Positions 6,907-59,471 of a DNA stretch of 64,000 bases are shown piece after piece. The stretch lies in NCBI RefSeq assembly GCF_024758725.1, contig NZ_CP096972.1, positions 3,268,001 through 3,332,000 of the forward strand. The letters run 5' to 3'. The notes beneath the pieces are model-generated. The model searched no databases and was not told where the DNA came from. It worked only from the letters and a program-made list of their open reading frames with translations. Every line of letters starts with the position of its first letter. The first letter of the stretch is position 1. The position numbers and the translations under genes were made by a program. The stretch is from Sphingomonas sp. SUN039. Its GTDB lineage: Bacteria; Pseudomonadota; Alphaproteobacteria; Sphingomonadales; Sphingomonadaceae.

Positions 6907-7029
6907 AACCCTCTCCACTTTGTGGAGAGGGCGGCGGAGCGCCAGCGGAGCCGGGAGAGGGATGATGCGGCGACGGGGCGTGCCTCTCCCGATGCTTCGC
7001 ATCGCCCTCTCCGCGAAGCGAAGAGGGTT
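6907..7029. repeat. palindromic repeat, family P1 copy A
   Basis: A roughly 120 bp element bounded by AACCCTCT... and ...AGAGGGTT, with two internal hairpins (CCCTCTCC/GGAGAGGG type arms and a central GGGAGAGG/CCTCTCCC pair). Two further copies in the same + strand orientation lie at 17155-17275 and 59353-59471. This copy fills the gap between the divergent mgtE and monooxygenase genes, so it sits in their promoter region. Confidence 0.85.
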
Positions 7030-9260: not shown

Positions 9261-9320
9261 GCGCGGGGTAGCTGCGGAGGGAGGCGTGTGTCTGTCGATG
9301 TTGGAGATTTCAGCAAGAAG

Positions 9321-9395
9321 GGGCTTCGACAAGCTCAGCCAAGTCGGTTGGGGGGACAGGCTCTCAACCCGACTTGGCTGAGCTTGTCGAAGCCC
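9321..9395. repeat. inverted repeat, family P3 copy 1
   Basis: Near-perfect 30-base arms: GGGCTTCGACAAGCTCAGCC... (9321-9350) and its reverse complement (9365-9395), differing by one inserted base. The arm ending GAGCTTGTCGAAGCCC recurs at 51359-51386. Short non-coding palindromes of this type are scattered in many sphingomonad genomes. Confidence 0.8.
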
Positions 9396-9435
9396 TTCGC
9401 TTTCGCCGCGTACCTGTTGCGACAGCGCGCAGTGC

Positions 9436-10518: not shown

Positions 10519-10595
10519 CACATAGAACAGGCCTTTCAGGCATCCTCTCCTAAAAACTTTCAAGGCCCGGTCGGCAACGACCGGGCCCTTTTTTT
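10519..10595 (+). ncRNA. candidate small RNA with anti-Shine-Dalgarno motif
   Basis: A short forward transcript is implied by a strong terminator with no gene before it. The predicted RNA of about 60-77 nt has a small stem GCCT-TTC-AGGC (10531-10541), an unpaired stretch containing CCTCTCCT (10544-10551), complementary to AGGAGAGG-type ribosome-binding sites, and a terminator stem. This layout is like that of alphaproteobacterial small RNAs that target ribosome-binding sites. The start is uncertain; TATGCT at 10507-10512 is a possible -10. It is divergent from the LysR gene. Confidence 0.55.
10564..10595 (+). terminator. intrinsic terminator of the small RNA
   Basis: Perfect 10-bp stem GGCCCGGTCG/CGACCGGGCC closed by a GCAA tetraloop, followed by C and seven T (10589-10595). 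The T tract is on the + strand, so it ends forward transcription; it overlaps the stop codon of the minus-strand MFS gene. Confidence 0.88.
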
Positions 10596-11877
10596 ATGCT
10601 TCGCGCCTTTGCAGCCGCAAAATGGCGTAGATCATCAGCGCGACCGACATCGTTGCCGCCGCCAGATAGGGCAATGGCCGCCAGATTTCGTACATGCCGA
10701 TGCCGATCGACGGCCCCAGCACGAACGACGCGCCGTTGACCGACGTCACCCGCCCCGCCACCGCGCCTTGCAACTCGGGACCCACGGCCAGCGACGATCC
10801 GGCGGTATAGCCGGGCCGGGCAAAGCCGAATCCCGCCGAGGTCAGCCCGAACGCGACGGCAAGCCCATAGAGAGTCGTCGATGCGCTGATAATCAGGCAG
10901 CCCGCTGCCCCCAGCGCCAGCCCCGTAATGACCAGCGCGCGCGGCTTCATGTCGAGCAGCGGGATCAGGCCCCATTGCACGAGCAGCGCGGCGAACGCGC
11001 CGGTCATCAGCACGACGCCGACCGCCTGTTGGCCCAGCACCGGATCGATCGCGAGCCGATCGAGGACGAGAAAGCCCATCGCCTGCCCCGCCATCGCCTG
11101 GGCATGGCCCATCACCAGTCCTACCAGCATCCACGGCCAGATCCGCGAATCGGTCAATTTGAGCATCGCGTTCGAGGGTTCGGAAACCGCCGCCGTGACA
11201 CTCGCGCCCGTCAAATTGCCGCCGATGGAAGGGTAGCTGGTCGCCGCCCCTTTGGCCGTGCTCCCCGGCGCATCATTGGGCAGCATGATCCATGTCGTCG
11301 TCAGCACGACAAACCCACAGGTCGCGAAGAAATAGGCGGGCCCCGCAAGGCCGACGCCCGGCAGGACGAAGAACGGTGCCAGCGCCGGACCCAGGATCGT
11401 GCCCAGTCCGAAGGCCGAGGCGAGCAGGGTCAGGGCCTTGGTCCGCTCCTCGCGCGTCGTCCGCGACGCCAAAATGGCTTGCGCAGCCGGGGGAGCGGCA
11501 GCCCCGAACAGTCCGTAGATCATGCGTGCCCCGACGAAGGCGGCAATCGTCGTGATCGGCCCGATCAGGCCATGGATACCGATCGTCAGCGAAATCGCAC
11601 ACAGCAGCACCGACACCGAAAAGCCGGCAAGACCGGTCAACACCATCCGCCGCCGCCCGGTCTGGTCCGATTTGCGTGCCCAGATCGGCGCGGCAATCAC
11701 CCAGACCAGCGCCGACACCGAAAACGCGACCGCAATGACGCTGTCGGGAATCTTCAGCGAGCGGCCGATGGCGGGCATCACCGACTGTAGCGCCGTATTA
11801 CCGGCACCGATGACCAGCATGACCATGAACAGCAGCGCGAAATCGCGGTCGAGTTTGGGGCGCGCGGGAAATTGCAT
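10594..11877 (-). CDS. MFS transporter (TetA-like)
   Basis: A 427-residue major facilitator with about 12 transmembrane helices and the motif A loop WARKSDQTGRRRMVL between helices 2 and 3 (about residues 66-80). The N-terminal half ([20 protein letters not shown]) and the helix 5 GPALAPFF region resemble drug/H+ antiporters of the Tet subgroup; the substrate is unknown. The start at 11877 lies 80 bases inside the preceding phospholipase D-like gene, so the two genes are read from one transcript in different frames. Confidence 0.85.
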   Translation of the reverse strand: MQFPARPKLDRDFALLFMVMLVIGAGNTALQSVMPAIGRSLKIPDSVIAVAFSVSALVWVIAAPIWARKSDQTGRRRMVLTGLAGFSVSVLLCAISLTIGIHGLIGPITTIAAFVGARMIYGLFGAAAPPAAQAILASRTTREERTKALTLLASAFGLGTILGPALAPFFVLPGVGLAGPAYFFATCGFVVLTTTWIMLPNDAPGSTAKGAATSYPSIGGNLTGASVTAAVSEPSNAMLKLTDSRIWPWMLVGLVMGHAQAMAGQAMGFLVLDRLAIDPVLGQQAVGVVLMTGAFAALLVQWGLIPLLDMKPRALVITGLALGAAGCLIISASTTLYGLAVAFGLTSAGFGFARPGYTAGSSLAVGPELQGAVAGRVTSVNGASFVLGPSIGIGMYEIWRPLPYLAAATMSVALMIYAILRLQRREA

Positions 11878-14740: not shown

Positions 14741-15679
14741 ATGCAGCGGTTGCGCGGGGATGAAACGGTCGAAGGCCCTTTGCGCGGCGGCATCGTCGCG
14801 CTTGGCAATTTCGACGGATTCCATCGCGGGCATCAGGCCGTGGTCGGGCGCGCGGTGGCGCTGGCGAGATCGCGCGGGGTTCCGGCCATCGTCGCGACGT
14901 TCGACCCGCACCCCGTCAGCTATTTCGTGCCCGACGCGCCGCCGTTCCGCCTGACCAGCCTCGACCAGCGCCAGCACCTGTTCGCCGGGGCCGGGGCGGA
15001 CGTGATGCTGGTGTTCCGCTTCGACGGGGAGCTGGCGGGGGTCAGCGCGGCGGATTTCATCACCGACCGGCTGATCGCGCGCGCAGGCGCGACGGGGGTG
15101 GTCACCGGCGAGGACTTCACTTTCGGCAAGGGACGCGGCGGTAACACGGCGGTGCTGGCGGAGACCGGCGGCGCGCACGGCCTGACCGTCGAGACCGTCG
15201 GACCGGTCGACGAGGACGGCGAGACCATCTCGTCGAGCCGCATCCGGGCGGCGTTGCAGGCGGGCGATTGCCCCACGGCGACGCACCTGCTGACCCGGCC
15301 TTTCGCCATCCGGGGCCGGGTGCAGCACGGCGACAAGCTGGGCCGCACCATCGGTTTTCCGACCGCGAATGTGGACATGGGCGACTATCTGCGCCCGCGT
15401 TACGGGATCTACGCGGTGCGCGGGCGGCTGGCGGATGGACGGGTGTTGGACGGTGCCGCGAATCTCGGCGTGCGTCCGACGTTCGACCCGCCCAAGGAGT
15501 TGCTCGAACCCTATTTCTTCGACTTTGCAGGCGATTTGTACGGGCAGGAGATCGAGGTCGAGTTGCACGCCTTCATCCGGCCCGAGGCGAAGTTCGACAG
15601 CCTGGACGCGCTGACCGCGCAGATGGAGAAGGATTGCGGGGCGGCGCGCAATCTCCTTTTGTCGTCAGCCCGGACTTGA
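14741..15679 (+). CDS. ribF: bifunctional riboflavin kinase / FAD synthetase
   Basis: A 312-residue RibF that makes FMN from riboflavin and then FAD. The N-terminal nucleotidyltransferase has VALGNFDGFHRGHQAVV (about residues 24-40) with the HxGH motif, and ISSSRIRAAL (about 166-175, the ISSTxxR motif). The C-terminal riboflavin kinase domain has IGFPTANVDMGDYLRPRYGIY (about 205-225; seen as GFPTAN). The last codons and the TGA lie inside a palindromic repeat (15669-15743), which probably replaced the original 3' end. ileS follows after 110 bases. Confidence 0.95.
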   Translation: MQRLRGDETVEGPLRGGIVALGNFDGFHRGHQAVVGRAVALARSRGVPAIVATFDPHPVSYFVPDAPPFRLTSLDQRQHLFAGAGADVMLVFRFDGELAGVSAADFITDRLIARAGATGVVTGEDFTFGKGRGGNTAVLAETGGAHGLTVETVGPVDEDGETISSSRIRAALQAGDCPTATHLLTRPFAIRGRVQHGDKLGRTIGFPTANVDMGDYLRPRYGIYAVRGRLADGRVLDGAANLGVRPTFDPPKELLEPYFFDFAGDLYGQEIEVELHAFIRPEAKFDSLDALTAQMEKDCGAARNLLLSSART

Positions 15680-15743
15680 TCCGGGCCTAGGCTTCTTCGT
15701 CACAGCCGACCAAGAAGAAGCCAAGCCCCGGATCAAGTCCGGG
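15669..15743. repeat. inverted repeat, family P4
   Basis: Arms CCCGGACTTGATCCGGG... (15669-15700) and ...CCCCGGATCAAGTCCGGG (15709-15743), also pairing AGGCTTCTTCGT with ACCAAGAAGAAGCC. The element begins inside the last codons of ribF and supplies its stop codon. It could also act as a transcriptional stop or mRNA stabiliser. Confidence 0.8.
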
Positions 15744-15789
15744 GCGACGGTTGGAATTATGTCCCTAAGCCGCTAACCGCCCCCACAGC

Positions 15790-18783
15790 ATGACCGACAC
15801 CCCCGAAACGACACGCGATTACCGCGACACCGTCTTCCTGCCGAAGACCGATTTCCCGATGAAGGCGGGACTGCCGCAAAAGGAACCTGGCATCCTCGCC
15901 AAATGGCAGGCCGACGGCGCGTATCAGCAACTCCGCGCCGCGCGCGCGGGGCGCGAGAAGTTCATCCTCCACGACGGCCCGCCCTATGCCAATGGCGACA
16001 TGCACATCGGCCATGCGCTCAACCATATCCTGAAGGACATGGTGTGCCGGACGCAGAATCTGCTCGGCAAGGATGCGCCGTACGTGCCCGGCTGGGACTG
16101 CCACGGCCTGCCCATCGAATGGAAAGTCGAGGAGGCGTATCGCAAGAAAAAGCTGAACAAGGATGAGGTGCCGGCTCAAGAATTCCGCGCCGAATGCCGC
16201 GCGTACGCACAGGGGTGGGTCGATACGCAGCGCGAACAGCTCAAGCGGCTGGGCATCAACGGCGACTGGGACCATCCCTATCTGACGATGGATGCCGACG
16301 CCGAGGCGACGATCGTCCAGGAACTGATGAAATTCGCAACCCGCGGCCAGCTGTATCGCGGGGCCAAGCCGGTGATGTGGTCCCCCGTCGAAAAGACCGC
16401 GCTGGCCGAAGCCGAGGTCGAATATGAGGACATCATCTCGACGCAGATCGATGTGACGTTCGAGATTGTGGAATCGCCGATCTCCGAACTGGTCGGCGCA
16501 CACGCGGTGATCTGGACGACGACACCGTGGACGATCCCGGTGAACCAGGCTTTGGCTTATGGGCCGGAGGTTGAGTATGTGGTGATCCAAGCCGGTGGGC
16601 GGCGTTATGTTCTGGCAGAGTACCTAGTGAAGCAGCTTGCGAGTCGGGCAATAGCTAGTGGCGCGGATGAAGAGACGTGGACGTTTCCGCCAGCTAAACA
16701 AAAAAATTGGTTTCGGCTTATGGGCTCCGACCTCGCCGGAACCATCGCCCGCCATCCGATGCACCATCTCGGCGGGTTCTTTGCCAAGCCGCGCCCGTTC
16801 CTGCCCGGCGATTTCGTCACGACCGAACAGGGCACCGGCCTCGTCCATATGGCACCCGATCATGGCGAGGACGATTTCGACCTGTGCAAGGCCAACGGCA
16901 TTGATGCGGTGTTCGCGGTCGAGGGCGACGGGAAGTATCGCGCCGACTGGGCATGGCTCGGCGGGCAGGGGAGCGTCATCAACGCCAAGTTTACAGCACC
17001 TGACGGCCCGATCTGCGAAGACCTGCGCGCGGCGGGTGCGCTGCTCGCGGCGTCGTCGGATTACAAGCACAGCTATCCGCACAGTTGGCGGTCGAAGGCC
17101 AAGGTGATCTTCCGCGCGACGCCGCAGTGGTTTATTCCAGTGGATGCGCCGCTGAACCCTCTCCACTTCGTGGAGAGGGCGGGGAGCGAAGCGAGCCGGG
17201 AGAGGAATGACGTGGAGGCGGGCGTGCCTCTCCCGACTGCTACGCAGTCGCCCTCTCCACAAGGTGGAGAGGGTTCATCGCTCCGCCAGACCGCCCTGTC
17301 CGCCATCGCCGCCACCCGCTTCGTCCCCGAAAAGGGCCGTAACCGCATTGGCAGCATGGTCGAGGGCCGCCCCGACTGGGTGATCAGCCGCCAGCGTGCC
17401 TGGGGCGTGCCGATCACGCTGTTCGTGAAAAAGGGCACCAACCAGTATCTCACCGACCCCGCGGTCAACGCGCGGATCGTGGACGCCATCCGCGTGGCTG
17501 GCGTCGACGGGTGGAGCGCGGAGGCCGCGCCCGCGCTGCTCGGCCCCGATTACGACGTGGCCGATTACGAACAGGTCACCGACATCCTCGACGTGTGGTT
17601 CGACAGCGGCTGCACCCACGCCTTCGTGCTCGAAAGCGGCAAATGGCCTGACATGCGCTGGCCCGCCGACCTGTATCTGGAGGGGTCCGACCAGCATCGC
17701 GGCTGGTTTCAGTCGTCGCTGCTGGAGTCCTGCGGCACGCGCGGGCGGGCGCCGTACGACGCGGTGCTGACGCACGGGTTCACGATGGACCAAAAGGGCA
17801 TGAAAATGTCCAAGTCGCTCGGCAACACCATCAACCCGCTCGACCTGATGCGCGATTACGGCGCGGACATTTTGCGGTTGTGGGCGCTGTCGGTGGATTT
17901 TACCGAGGACCACCGCATCGGAAAGGAAATCCTGAGCGGCGTGGCCGACCAGTATCGCAAGGTGCGGAATACCTTCCGGTATTTGCTGGGCGCGCTGGAG
18001 GGGTTCTCCGAGGACGAACGTGTGCCGGTGGCGGACATGCCCGAACTGGAGCGGTACATCCTGCACCTTCTCGCGGACATGGATGCCAAGCTGAAGCAGG
18101 CGGTCGATGACTTCGACTTCAACAGCTACACGCGGTTGCTCAGCGATTTCGCCAACAACGACCTCGGTGAGTTCTACTTCGATATTCGCAAAGATGCGTT
18201 GTATTGCGACGTCGGCCCTGCGCTTCCGCACGGGAGCCACAAACGCCGAGCGTACCGCACTGTGCTCGACATCTTGTTCCATGCGCTGGTTCGTTACGCA
18301 GCACCGGTTCTAGTTTTTACTAGTGAGGAAGTGTGGGGCACGAGATTTTCAGCTTTGGGAAGTGTGCATCTTCTTGAATGGCCGGATGTAAAATTCGAAT
18401 GGCTAGACTTGTCCTCCAGTGAAGATTGGAACACCCGACGCGTCGCAAGGCGAGCAAGCAACTACGCAATCGAGCAACTCCGAAAAGATAAACGTGTCGG
18501 CTCTGGAAATGCAGCGAATGTTGAGGTGAAACAAAAATCAGCTATTTTTGAGTTCGAGGATATGGCAGAAGTATTTATGACTGCACCTGCCTTAATCGAT
18601 GAAGACAAAGTCGGTCGAATTTGGGAACCATGGAGCGGACCATGGATTACCGATATTACATCCGAGTTTTCCGTTAGGGTTCGTCCTACCGCGTTTCACA
18701 AATGCGGCCGCTGCTGGCGGCATTTGCCCGAAGTGACCGAGGATGGCGCTTTGTGCGGGCGTTGCGCAGAGGTGGTGGCATGA
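15790..18783 (+). CDS. ileS: isoleucyl-tRNA synthetase with an in-frame repeat insertion
   Basis: A 997-residue class I synthetase charging tRNA-Ile. Motifs: HIGH within PYANGDMHIGHALNH (about residues 67-81), the CP1 editing domain with TTPWTIPVNQALAYGPEVEY (about 243-262), KMSKS in KGMKMSKSLGN (about 665-675), and a C-terminal zinc site CGRCWRHLPE...CGRC. About 41 residues (456-496) are encoded by palindromic repeat P1 copy B and have no counterpart in normal IleS; they lie between PQWFIPVDAP and the LRQTALSAIAATRFVP segment. Two segments (about 16560-16725 and 18180-18705) have lower GC and different codon use. lspA overlaps the stop codon by ATGA. Confidence 0.96.
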   Translation: MTDTPETTRDYRDTVFLPKTDFPMKAGLPQKEPGILAKWQADGAYQQLRAARAGREKFILHDGPPYANGDMHIGHALNHILKDMVCRTQNLLGKDAPYVPGWDCHGLPIEWKVEEAYRKKKLNKDEVPAQEFRAECRAYAQGWVDTQREQLKRLGINGDWDHPYLTMDADAEATIVQELMKFATRGQLYRGAKPVMWSPVEKTALAEAEVEYEDIISTQIDVTFEIVESPISELVGAHAVIWTTTPWTIPVNQALAYGPEVEYVVIQAGGRRYVLAEYLVKQLASRAIASGADEETWTFPPAKQKNWFRLMGSDLAGTIARHPMHHLGGFFAKPRPFLPGDFVTTEQGTGLVHMAPDHGEDDFDLCKANGIDAVFAVEGDGKYRADWAWLGGQGSVINAKFTAPDGPICEDLRAAGALLAASSDYKHSYPHSWRSKAKVIFRATPQWFIPVDAPLNPLHFVERAGSEASRERNDVEAGVPLPTATQSPSPQGGEGSSLRQTALSAIAATRFVPEKGRNRIGSMVEGRPDWVISRQRAWGVPITLFVKKGTNQYLTDPAVNARIVDAIRVAGVDGWSAEAAPALLGPDYDVADYEQVTDILDVWFDSGCTHAFVLESGKWPDMRWPADLYLEGSDQHRGWFQSSLLESCGTRGRAPYDAVLTHGFTMDQKGMKMSKSLGNTINPLDLMRDYGADILRLWALSVDFTEDHRIGKEILSGVADQYRKVRNTFRYLLGALEGFSEDERVPVADMPELERYILHLLADMDAKLKQAVDDFDFNSYTRLLSDFANNDLGEFYFDIRKDALYCDVGPALPHGSHKRRAYRTVLDILFHALVRYAAPVLVFTSEEVWGTRFSALGSVHLLEWPDVKFEWLDLSSSEDWNTRRVARRASNYAIEQLRKDKRVGSGNAANVEVKQKSAIFEFEDMAEVFMTAPALIDEDKVGRIWEPWSGPWITDITSEFSVRVRPTAFHKCGRCWRHLPEVTEDGALCGRCAEVVA
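17155..17275. repeat. palindromic repeat, family P1 copy B, inside ileS
   Basis: Same element as 6907-7029 and 59353-59471, with AACCCTCTCCACTTCGTGGA at its left end and GGTGGAGAGGGTT at its right end. It is inserted in the ileS coding sequence without breaking the frame and encodes a hydrophilic peptide (for example NPLHFVERAGSEASRERND). Confidence 0.92.
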
Positions 18784-42613: not shown

Positions 42614-42719
42614 TTCCCGAGCGAAGTCGAGGGACTACGCCGAGCGCAGTCGAGGAGCCTGTTCGTGAAAGCATTGTTCTCGACTTCGCTCGAACCAGTC
42701 CCTCGACTTCGCTCGGGAA
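42614..42719. repeat. inverted repeat, family P6
   Basis: Perfect 23-base arms: TTCCCGAGCGAAGTCGAGGG... (42614-42636) and its reverse complement (42697-42719), with further CGAGCGCAGTCGAGG/CTCGACTTCGCTCG pairing inside. It fills the gap between the ATP-grasp gene and the transglutaminase gene. Confidence 0.82.
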
Positions 42720-51329: not shown

Positions 51330-51358
51330 TGCAAGCCGCCGTGCGGGCACGCGATAGA

Positions 51359-51445
51359 CCCGACTTGGCTGAGCTTGTCGAAGCCCCTTCCTTTCCCTTG
51401 ACCCGGTCGAAAAGAAAAAAAGCCCTTCGACAAGCTCAGGGAAGG
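51359..51445. repeat. inverted repeat, family P3 copy 2
   Basis: Left arm CCCGACTTGGCTGAGCTTGT... (51359-51386) is identical to the right arm at 9368-9395. The right arm is a shorter variant (CCTTCGACAAGCTCAGGGAA, about 51424-51443). On the minus strand the right arm is followed by a run of seven T, so this half may terminate bipA transcription. Confidence 0.75.
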
Positions 51446-51480
51446 CGGTGTGGGGACCGACGCCGAAATCCGTCGGGATT

Positions 51481-58670: not shown

Positions 58671-59444
58671 TTACTCCTTACACGCCCGTATCGCCGCCGG
58701 ATCGGGCCGCGCTCCGCTCGGCGCGAACGCGGCGAGATAGCCGCCTGCCGACGGCATCGGCTGATAGTCGACCTGTTTGTAGCCGACTGCCGCGAATTCG
58801 CATTTGAGCAGCGCCGGCGGAGTGCCGTGCTGGTTGGTCGGACGGTCGGCGTCGACCACGATGACGCGGCCGCCCGCCCTGGTCGCGGGGCGCAAATGCC
58901 AGAGGAACGCGTAGGGGCTTTCGATCTCGTGATACATGTGCACGAGGAAGACGCGGTCGAAGCTGTTTTCGGGCAAGCCCGGATTGTCGGGCGTGCCCAG
59001 CTTCACGCTGACATTGTCGAGCCGTTCGCGGGTCACGCGCTCGGCAAGCTTGTCGCGCACTTCCGGCATGATGTCCTGCGCCAGCACGCGCCCTTTGGTG
59101 CCGAGGCGGGCGGCGAGGCGGATGGTGTAATAGCCTTCGCCCGCACCGATGTCGGCGACGGTCATGCCGGGTGTCACGCCCGCGCGGTCCATCACCTCGA
59201 CCGATTCGCCGACCTTGTCGCGGCTGTCCTCGTCGGACCAGCGCGGGCTGACGATGTTGGCCACGGGACGCGCGGCGGCGGGGAAGGCTGCGGCGTTAGG
59301 GGTGGGCGTGGCGGTGGAAGTGTTGCAGGCGGCGAGGAGGAGGGGGAGGGCCAACCCTCTTCGCTTCGCGGAGAGGGCGGGGAGCGCAGCGAGCCGGGAG
59401 AGGCGTGAAGTGCGCGCGGTCGTGCCTCTCCCGATGCTTCGCAT
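58671..59444 (-). CDS. SAM-dependent methyltransferase-like lipoprotein
   Basis: A 257-residue protein: lipoprotein-type signal ending LALPLLLAACN (lipobox LAAC, Cys at about residue 40) and a class I methyltransferase domain with TVADIGAGEGYYTIRLAARL (about residues 83-102) as the SAM-binding loop. Such exported predicted methyltransferases are frequent in sphingomonads; substrate unknown. The start (ATG 59444) and the unusually long, Arg-rich stretch before the hydrophobic core are encoded by palindromic repeat P1 copy C. A TTG start at about 59361 would leave a very short signal. prfB is upstream on the same strand, 41 bases from the ATG. Confidence 0.78.
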   Translation of the reverse strand: MRSIGRGTTARTSRLSRLAALPALSAKRRGLALPLLLAACNTSTATPTPNAAAFPAAARPVANIVSPRWSDEDSRDKVGESVEVMDRAGVTPGMTVADIGAGEGYYTIRLAARLGTKGRVLAQDIMPEVRDKLAERVTRERLDNVSVKLGTPDNPGLPENSFDRVFLVHMYHEIESPYAFLWHLRPATRAGGRVIVVDADRPTNQHGTPPALLKCEFAAVGYKQVDYQPMPSAGGYLAAFAPSGARPDPAAIRACKE

Positions 59445-59471
59445 CGCCCTCTCCGCAAAGCGAAGAGGGTT
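59353..59471. repeat. palindromic repeat, family P1 copy C
   Basis: Third copy of the element at 6907-7029 and 17155-17275, same + strand orientation, starting AACCCTCTTCGCTTCGCGGA and ending GCAAAGCGAAGAGGGTT. It lies between prfB and the methyltransferase gene and enters the coding sequence of the latter. Confidence 0.9.

Follow-up and report, generated by a model that had tools for sequence, protein, structure and literature searches.

The best-known cases of palindromic selfish DNA within protein-coding genes come from two intracellular bacteria, Rickettsia and Wolbachia, where, in our judgement, weak selection offers an easy explanation. The palindromic elements of Rickettsia measure about 70-190 bp, fall into several families and are found within protein genes without loss of frame, ileS and one other tRNA synthetase gene among them; the R. 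japonica paper places RPE-7 in ileS (144 bp) and in the phenylalanyl-tRNA synthetase beta gene, and weighs insertion hotspots, with insertions occupying identical positions in every Rickettsia ortholog that it aligned (PMC3767692). GTAG/CGTC-tagged REPs and their intragenic dimers are likewise comparable, being described in the excerpts used as short paired inverted units, mostly intergenic and in some cases within genes, with intragenic REPs known from other bacteria (PMC3733652). Further likeness is found in bacterial MITEs (ERIC/RU-1, Correia), which are small and interspersed, have inverted-repeat ends and contribute frames fused to host genes, and in the Caulobacter CerM-associated intergenic repeats (CIR), a similar kind of repeat in alphaproteobacteria, as far as the consulted part of that source goes (PMC2229807). 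Among the papers listed by our search of the open-licence literature, none deals with palindromic repeats in sphingomonad ileS, or with several repeat clusters using one loop across a free-living family.

In this work we describe such a repeat in Sphingomonas sp. SUN039, within a window of 64,000 nucleotides (contig NZ_CP096972.1, positions 3,268,001 to 3,332,000 of the forward strand). The isoleucyl-tRNA synthetase (IleRS) gene ileS occupies 15790-18783 (+ strand) as one open frame of 997 residues, scores 768 bits against a TIGR00392 cut-off of 621, in agreement with Pfam, and is present in a single copy (one match in the genome at E <= 1e-50). A sequence-only reading of this DNA had placed a 121-bp palindromic element in frame inside the gene at 17155-17275, and both position and frame are confirmed: the insert (+ strand) spans approximately residues 456-496, residue 456 beginning at base 17155, and encodes the peptide NPLHFVERAGSEASRER...QSPSPQGGEG. 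The accompanying estimate of about 41 added residues holds as to the intact frame, although 121 bases amount to 40 codons and one base, so that the figure of 41 includes a junction codon. All three copies that had been counted in the window were recovered, the other two being full-length copies at 6907-7029 (+ strand), upstream of a luciferase-like monooxygenase gene, and at 59353-59471 (+ strand), between predicted genes as judged by codon composition.

The element is built of two inverted arms of about 50 bp around a variable centre of about 20 bp, with ends AACCCTCTCC...GGAGAGGGTT; terminal inverted repeats of the form AACCCTCT(C/T)C...GGAGAGGGTT, or near variants, are present. The complete 3.53-Mb genome holds 14 full-length copies, besides partial ones, and the 13 that remain when the ileS copy is set aside are 79-93% identical to it. 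As RNA, the ileS copy folds at -93.6 kcal/mol, where a set of 200 dinucleotide shuffles gives -54 +/- 4 (z -9.7), and its fold as DNA lies at z -8.6 against shuffles, so that the palindromic fold is far beyond chance. On average 5.07 of the six frames are open per copy (14 copies), compared with 3.7 in dinucleotide shuffles, and none of 300 shuffle sets reached 5.07, a comparison that is not an independent-sample test because the copies are related and palindromic. When the window-type element was sought in 199 family genomes, it was found at full length in SUN039 only, with half-length matches in five others and no match in the congeners G004 and G005; these figures are lower bounds, the search being shallow, with at most four candidates scored per genome and 7 matches instead of 32 returned from SUN039 itself.

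Rfam at gathering score gave nothing at the position of the element and no intron in the window. The ends of the 14 copies carry no GTAG or CGTC tag in a fixed place, and inspection by eye of the 10 bases on either side of the copies showed no target-site duplication. Matches to PF01797 (Y1/REP transposase) numbered zero in the genome, in a search whose control was positive in 5 of 14 known genomes, and a RAYT was accordingly rejected as mover of the element. A composite transposon was also considered for copies lying 0.9 and 2.2 kb apart and set aside: the neighbouring frames look like glyS, leuC, leuD and one that, from its sequence, we take to be pyruvate phosphate dikinase, and no transposase was recognised among them, PF01797 being the transposase family that was searched.

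The window holds other repeats and signals besides the element. An inverted repeat, CCCGGACTTGATCCGGG / CCCCGGATCAAGTCCGGGG, lies at 15660-15760 directly upstream of ileS, and the frame at 14741-15679, presumably ribF, terminates inside it; the same motif type also encodes the SRVKPGT insert in the ileS of another species. Further inverted repeats, belonging to the GCTTGTCGAAG and CGAGCGAAGTCGAG kinds, occur at 9312-9404 and 51345-51455 and at 42614-42719, and an Rfam suhB/mmgR small RNA was matched at 10524-10602 (51.9 bits). Within ileS, GC content drops to 46-54% in the 3' part (18180-18750), whereas other parts of the gene have about 58-69%.

Elsewhere in the genome, where copies were placed by codon composition, by reading through and, for nine frames, by Pfam, the element stands in frame in four further gene places. 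Two are in glyS, encoding the glycyl-tRNA synthetase beta subunit, at C1:1542054-1542172 and C1:1543004-1543123, which makes this the second tRNA synthetase gene of the genome to bear the element. The alignment to the solved beta-subunit chain 7yse_C has a gap in which query residues 371 to 419 stand against chain residues 378 to 386, and the first glyS copy (query residues 375-414) lies within it; the second lies where the alignment is broken between its final two segments. A third place, at C1:2509205-2509365, shows the arms of the element around a longer Ala/Pro-rich centre, in the linker that joins the lipoyl domain to the E3-binding domain in an E2 gene whose nearest counterparts are pyruvate dehydrogenase E2 chains, and in the fourth the element is read as the C-terminal end of a gene with an Aconitase domain, probably leuC. 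The frame used in glyS differs from that in ileS, and the copies therefore have no one peptide in common. All other copies seem to fall between predicted genes or at their edges, as judged for most of them by codon composition alone.

To place the ileS copy in the context of the family, we read the corresponding loop, here called Site A and corresponding in the window to 17146-17280 (+ strand; residues 453-497, QWFIPVD to LRQTAL), in 249 of 299 genomes (298 family genomes and one more genus member). Among the 50 others, 38 had a listed ileS place that was left out (approximately every third row), five gave no ileS match, three gave no match to the C-terminal query, three had split or partial genes and one ended at a contig end (L080). 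Site A holds an in-frame palindromic repeat in 60 of the 249 genomes (57 of 231 labelled rows plus the loops L152, L253 and L264), and no labelled repeat in 189, congeners included. The sequence-only reading had allowed that close relatives might all share the same 41 residues and that the element might not recur; instead, the congeners G001, G002, G004 and G005 have a short loop without these residues, another repeat occupies the loop of G006, and further copies of the element exist in the genome (no ileS match was obtained for G003). Every listed ileS row is without a stop, and 249 of 250 fetched loop regions are open, the exception being L080, cut by its contig end; the method of reading loops itself required an open loop.

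The 60 repeats fall into approximately seven sequence clusters, defined by all-against-all blastn of the inserts together with motif labels that were given after the sequences had been seen; the cluster names are our own. The GGEG type (SPSPLGGEGRGEG...HPNPLPEGEG) has 29 carriers and the TCGACAAG type (STSLDTNG...PSEVEG, VRAEPVEA...LRQAQGER) has 21, followed by the small clusters PASAGM (four), PPRAGEV (two), PLGEVAA (two), RVKPGT (one) and the window type (one). The clusters show no mutual blastn similarity at 1e-4, and a deeper kinship between them may exist, given the short CCCTCTCC-like words that the GGEG type has in common with the window type. Loops of non-carriers are mostly short or belong to one of three conserved non-repeat kinds (RWENEGG, FDVAP, xxCxxE), with about fifteen rows fitting none; the GGEG repeats are linked by blastn to the xxCxxE loops and are told apart from them by motif and fold.

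Two further lines of evidence identify the inserts as repeats. Fold scores of z -2.9 or below were obtained for 47 of the 57 labelled repeat loops, compared with one of 99 other long loops (L240), the remaining 10 of the 57 showing a weak fold (z -1.4 to -2.5). In addition, whole-genome searches with one query per cluster, in which matches on both strands are counted and matches are thus not equal to copies, gave matches to the GGEG query in 19 of the 20 carriers of this type that were tried, with 1-56 matches, often as inverted pairs (a single match in G298 and G274, none in G220), and in two of five other genomes (SUN039 and G005). The TCGACAAG query was recovered in 16 of 20 carriers tried, with 4-81 matches (none in G006, G142, G099 and G160), and gave none in SUN039. 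The PASAGM query gave 19, 18 and 7 matches in all three carriers tried and two matches in one of five other genomes. Besides the window type, the three clusters searched recur genome-wide in most carriers tried.

The length of Site A ranges from 21 to 88 residues across the family, a range that depends on the cut used, lengths being comparable only within one cut. In the solved structure 1ffy, which we take to be the S. aureus IleRS, QWFASI runs straight into SKVRQ and the loop is nearly absent. Both observations support the earlier suggestion that the loop may tolerate extra residues. In other alphaproteobacterial families no repeat was seen in 25 readable loops of 19-29 residues (by the cut used), which derive from 28 other-family genomes among the 30 best-scoring loci in a search of 142 genomes of the class, 127 of them matched. 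An AlphaFold model of the window IleRS, built with 36 relatives, has a mean pLDDT of 59.6 with low values at residues 458-494; much of the catalytic core is also low, and for this reason nothing is claimed from the model, surface position included.

The distribution of the repeats points to repeated entry. Of 85 genera, 34 include a carrier; among the 56 for which at least two genomes were read, 29 are mixed, and 11 genera have two or more clusters. In a FastTree phylogeny computed from 231 IleS rows with the loop left out, presence and absence of a repeat require at least 42 changes, a minimum that lumps gains with losses and leaves branch supports unused. Within one group, Blastomonas natatoria and Sphingomonas ursincola have a short loop, and in B. 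aquatica, Blastomonas sp. CACIA14H2 and Blastomonas sp. AAP53 the loop contains a GGEG-type insert that is different in each, the three having only 22 to 40 identical bases in common, in short local alignments. GGEG core motifs are found in all three codon phases, and inspection by eye found a repeat in 18 of 80 named loci, many from the same genomes as the main set. The loop is also not the only place in ileS to have received these sequences: in a blast search (1e-6) of 232 ileS genes against 57 repeat inserts, 51 genomes matched in the loop and 11 elsewhere, ten of these at a second site, Site B (HPM to FF.xPRP, 16753-16785 in the window, + strand, residues 322-332), and one near the C-terminus (L100), with some genomes carrying both. 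The window has no repeat at Site B, and 168 of the 232 genes reach the conserved start, so that partial genes may hide further sites. These data show several independent insertion events at Site A.

Selection on the inserts was compared in non-overlapping pairs with a loop identity of at least 60% (14 repeat pairs and 48 control pairs with conserved loops) by the NG86 method, which in GC-rich genes and short loops gives rough numbers, some pairs possibly being non-orthologous insertions. Median dN/dS is 0.57 in repeat loops and 0.17 in conserved loops, and the protein-level constraint on the inserts is accordingly weak, because their dN/dS lies well above that of conserved loops. The median ratio of loop dS to flank dS is 0.55 in repeat pairs compared with 1.41 in controls (Mann-Whitney p = 5e-4), an example being L292/L293 (0.03 in the loop against 0.46 in the flanks), with L137/L253 (1.68 against 0.78) and L239/L251 (1.08 against 0.72) running in the opposite direction. 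Low synonymous divergence in several of the inserts is not accounted for by plain neutral ageing, and can result from gene conversion with other copies, re-insertion, youth or nucleotide-level constraint. In three pairs, L126/L175 (G074 and G236), L292/L293 and L037/L288, the inserts appear to be orthologous and yet have diverged far less at synonymous sites than the gene on either side.

We consider it highly probable that stop-poor, MITE- or REP-like palindromes survive where the loop of a gene tolerates them, and that the IleRS loop has been hit repeatedly by about seven clusters. The element would be a small, non-autonomous, palindromic interspersed repeat, resembling a MITE or a REP dimer, one of several kinds scattered in sphingomonad genomes and presumably mobilised by a transposase acting in trans. 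Because the element is poor in stops in all six frames, an insertion that keeps phase would give an uninterrupted extra peptide, and selection would purge insertions except where the protein tolerates added residues. The loop between the QWF and LRxxAL segments would be such a tolerant place in this family, probably at the enzyme surface, and tolerance rather than a DNA target would explain why different repeats and non-repeat expansions share it. The peptide would then stay in the enzyme as a nearly neutral, harmless and probably unstructured loop that decays with age into ordinary sequence.

That the insert is instead kept for a function, its mRNA hairpin or added loop modulating the folding, translation speed or regulation of IleRS under selection on nucleotides, would be in keeping with the very stable hairpin and with the reduced loop dS relative to flanks (p = 5e-4), yet the same reduction is also expected from gene conversion, later independent insertion or a young insert, the two pairs noted above run the other way, and dN/dS is much higher than in conserved loops. 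Since 189 of 249 genomes, congeners included, have no labelled repeat, and the repeats vary in sequence, length and codon phase, we regard a function as unlikely. We hold an equally low expectation of a bolder version, in which the loop is a standing entry port that, throughout the family, turns unrelated mobile palindromes into protein time and again, and in which some resident inserts are kept more constant in nucleotide sequence than the neighbouring synonymous sites, the hairpin perhaps being recruited, for example for ribosome pausing at an IleRS domain boundary. A single old, lineage-specific loop insertion that diverged in place, the genomic repeats having been copied out of it, might be suggested by the several non-repeat loop types (RWENEGG, FDVAP, xxCxxE) that are conserved across many genera. 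Against it stand the lack of blastn similarity between the clusters at 1e-4, the use of every codon phase, the short loops of other genomes in these genera, a second ileS site that has received repeats from the same clusters and the few identical bases shared by the Blastomonas inserts, which together render it very improbable.

Long palindromes and hairpins are also features of known bypass and excision systems, and removal of the insert by RNA excision, translational bypass or protein splicing would have that general resemblance in its favour. If the insert were taken out before translation or in its course, neither frame nor stops would matter; the 60 carriers are nevertheless in frame and without stops, with only L080 unreadable among the fetched loop regions. 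This evidence covers the loops that were read, and broken frames are possible in the five genomes without an ileS match and in some with partial genes. For protein splicing, on which the frame is silent, the one NCBIfam match at E <= 1 among nine insert peptides was a sub-threshold match to hemK_fam (E 0.18, L083); a 49-residue insert stretch searched for an intein gave none at E <= 1, and Rfam at gathering score returned no self-splicing intron in the window. We therefore think removal exceedingly unlikely, and the insert is most likely translated, since excision or bypass would make the frame irrelevant and the carriers nevertheless keep it open.

Survival of stop-poor palindromes in a tolerant loop, the reading we prefer, gives the locus a wider interest. 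The IleRS loop provides a natural replicated experiment on how proteins accept new sequence and on the rate at which the repeat character of that sequence fades, and it bears on whether tolerance or target preference decides where mobile palindromes survive. It also carries a caution for annotation, as part of the variation in IleRS loop length in this family is repeat-derived.

Compared with the described systems, the element differs from GTAG/CGTC-tagged REPs in lacking a constant-position tag in its 14 copies and in occurring in a genome free of PF01797. With the ERIC/RU-1 and Correia MITEs it shares inverted-repeat ends and open frames fused to host genes, and inspection by eye showed no target duplication at its copies. 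The CIR of Caulobacter, in the part of the source consulted, have stops in all six frames and do not lie within genes (PMC2229807), whereas the element described here is stop-poor and lies in genes. The closest counterpart is the kind represented by the Rickettsia elements: a palindrome of about 100-150 bp, in many copies and in frame in protein genes, is what we observe, and the parallel drawn by the sequence-only reading is strengthened by the RPE-7 copy in Rickettsia ileS itself. At the protein level, the NCBIfam matches of nine insert peptides and of the whole window IleRS included no RPE family, in a library that we assume to contain RPE models. In Rickettsia the hosts are intracellular; here, the host family is free-living, to judge from its named relatives, the gene is essential and single-copy, and different clusters occupy one loop beside repeat-free loops in sister species of the same genus. 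The principle is thus already known from Rickettsia, even from its ileS, and the recurrence of multiple clusters at one loop is the part for which our literature search gave no precedent.
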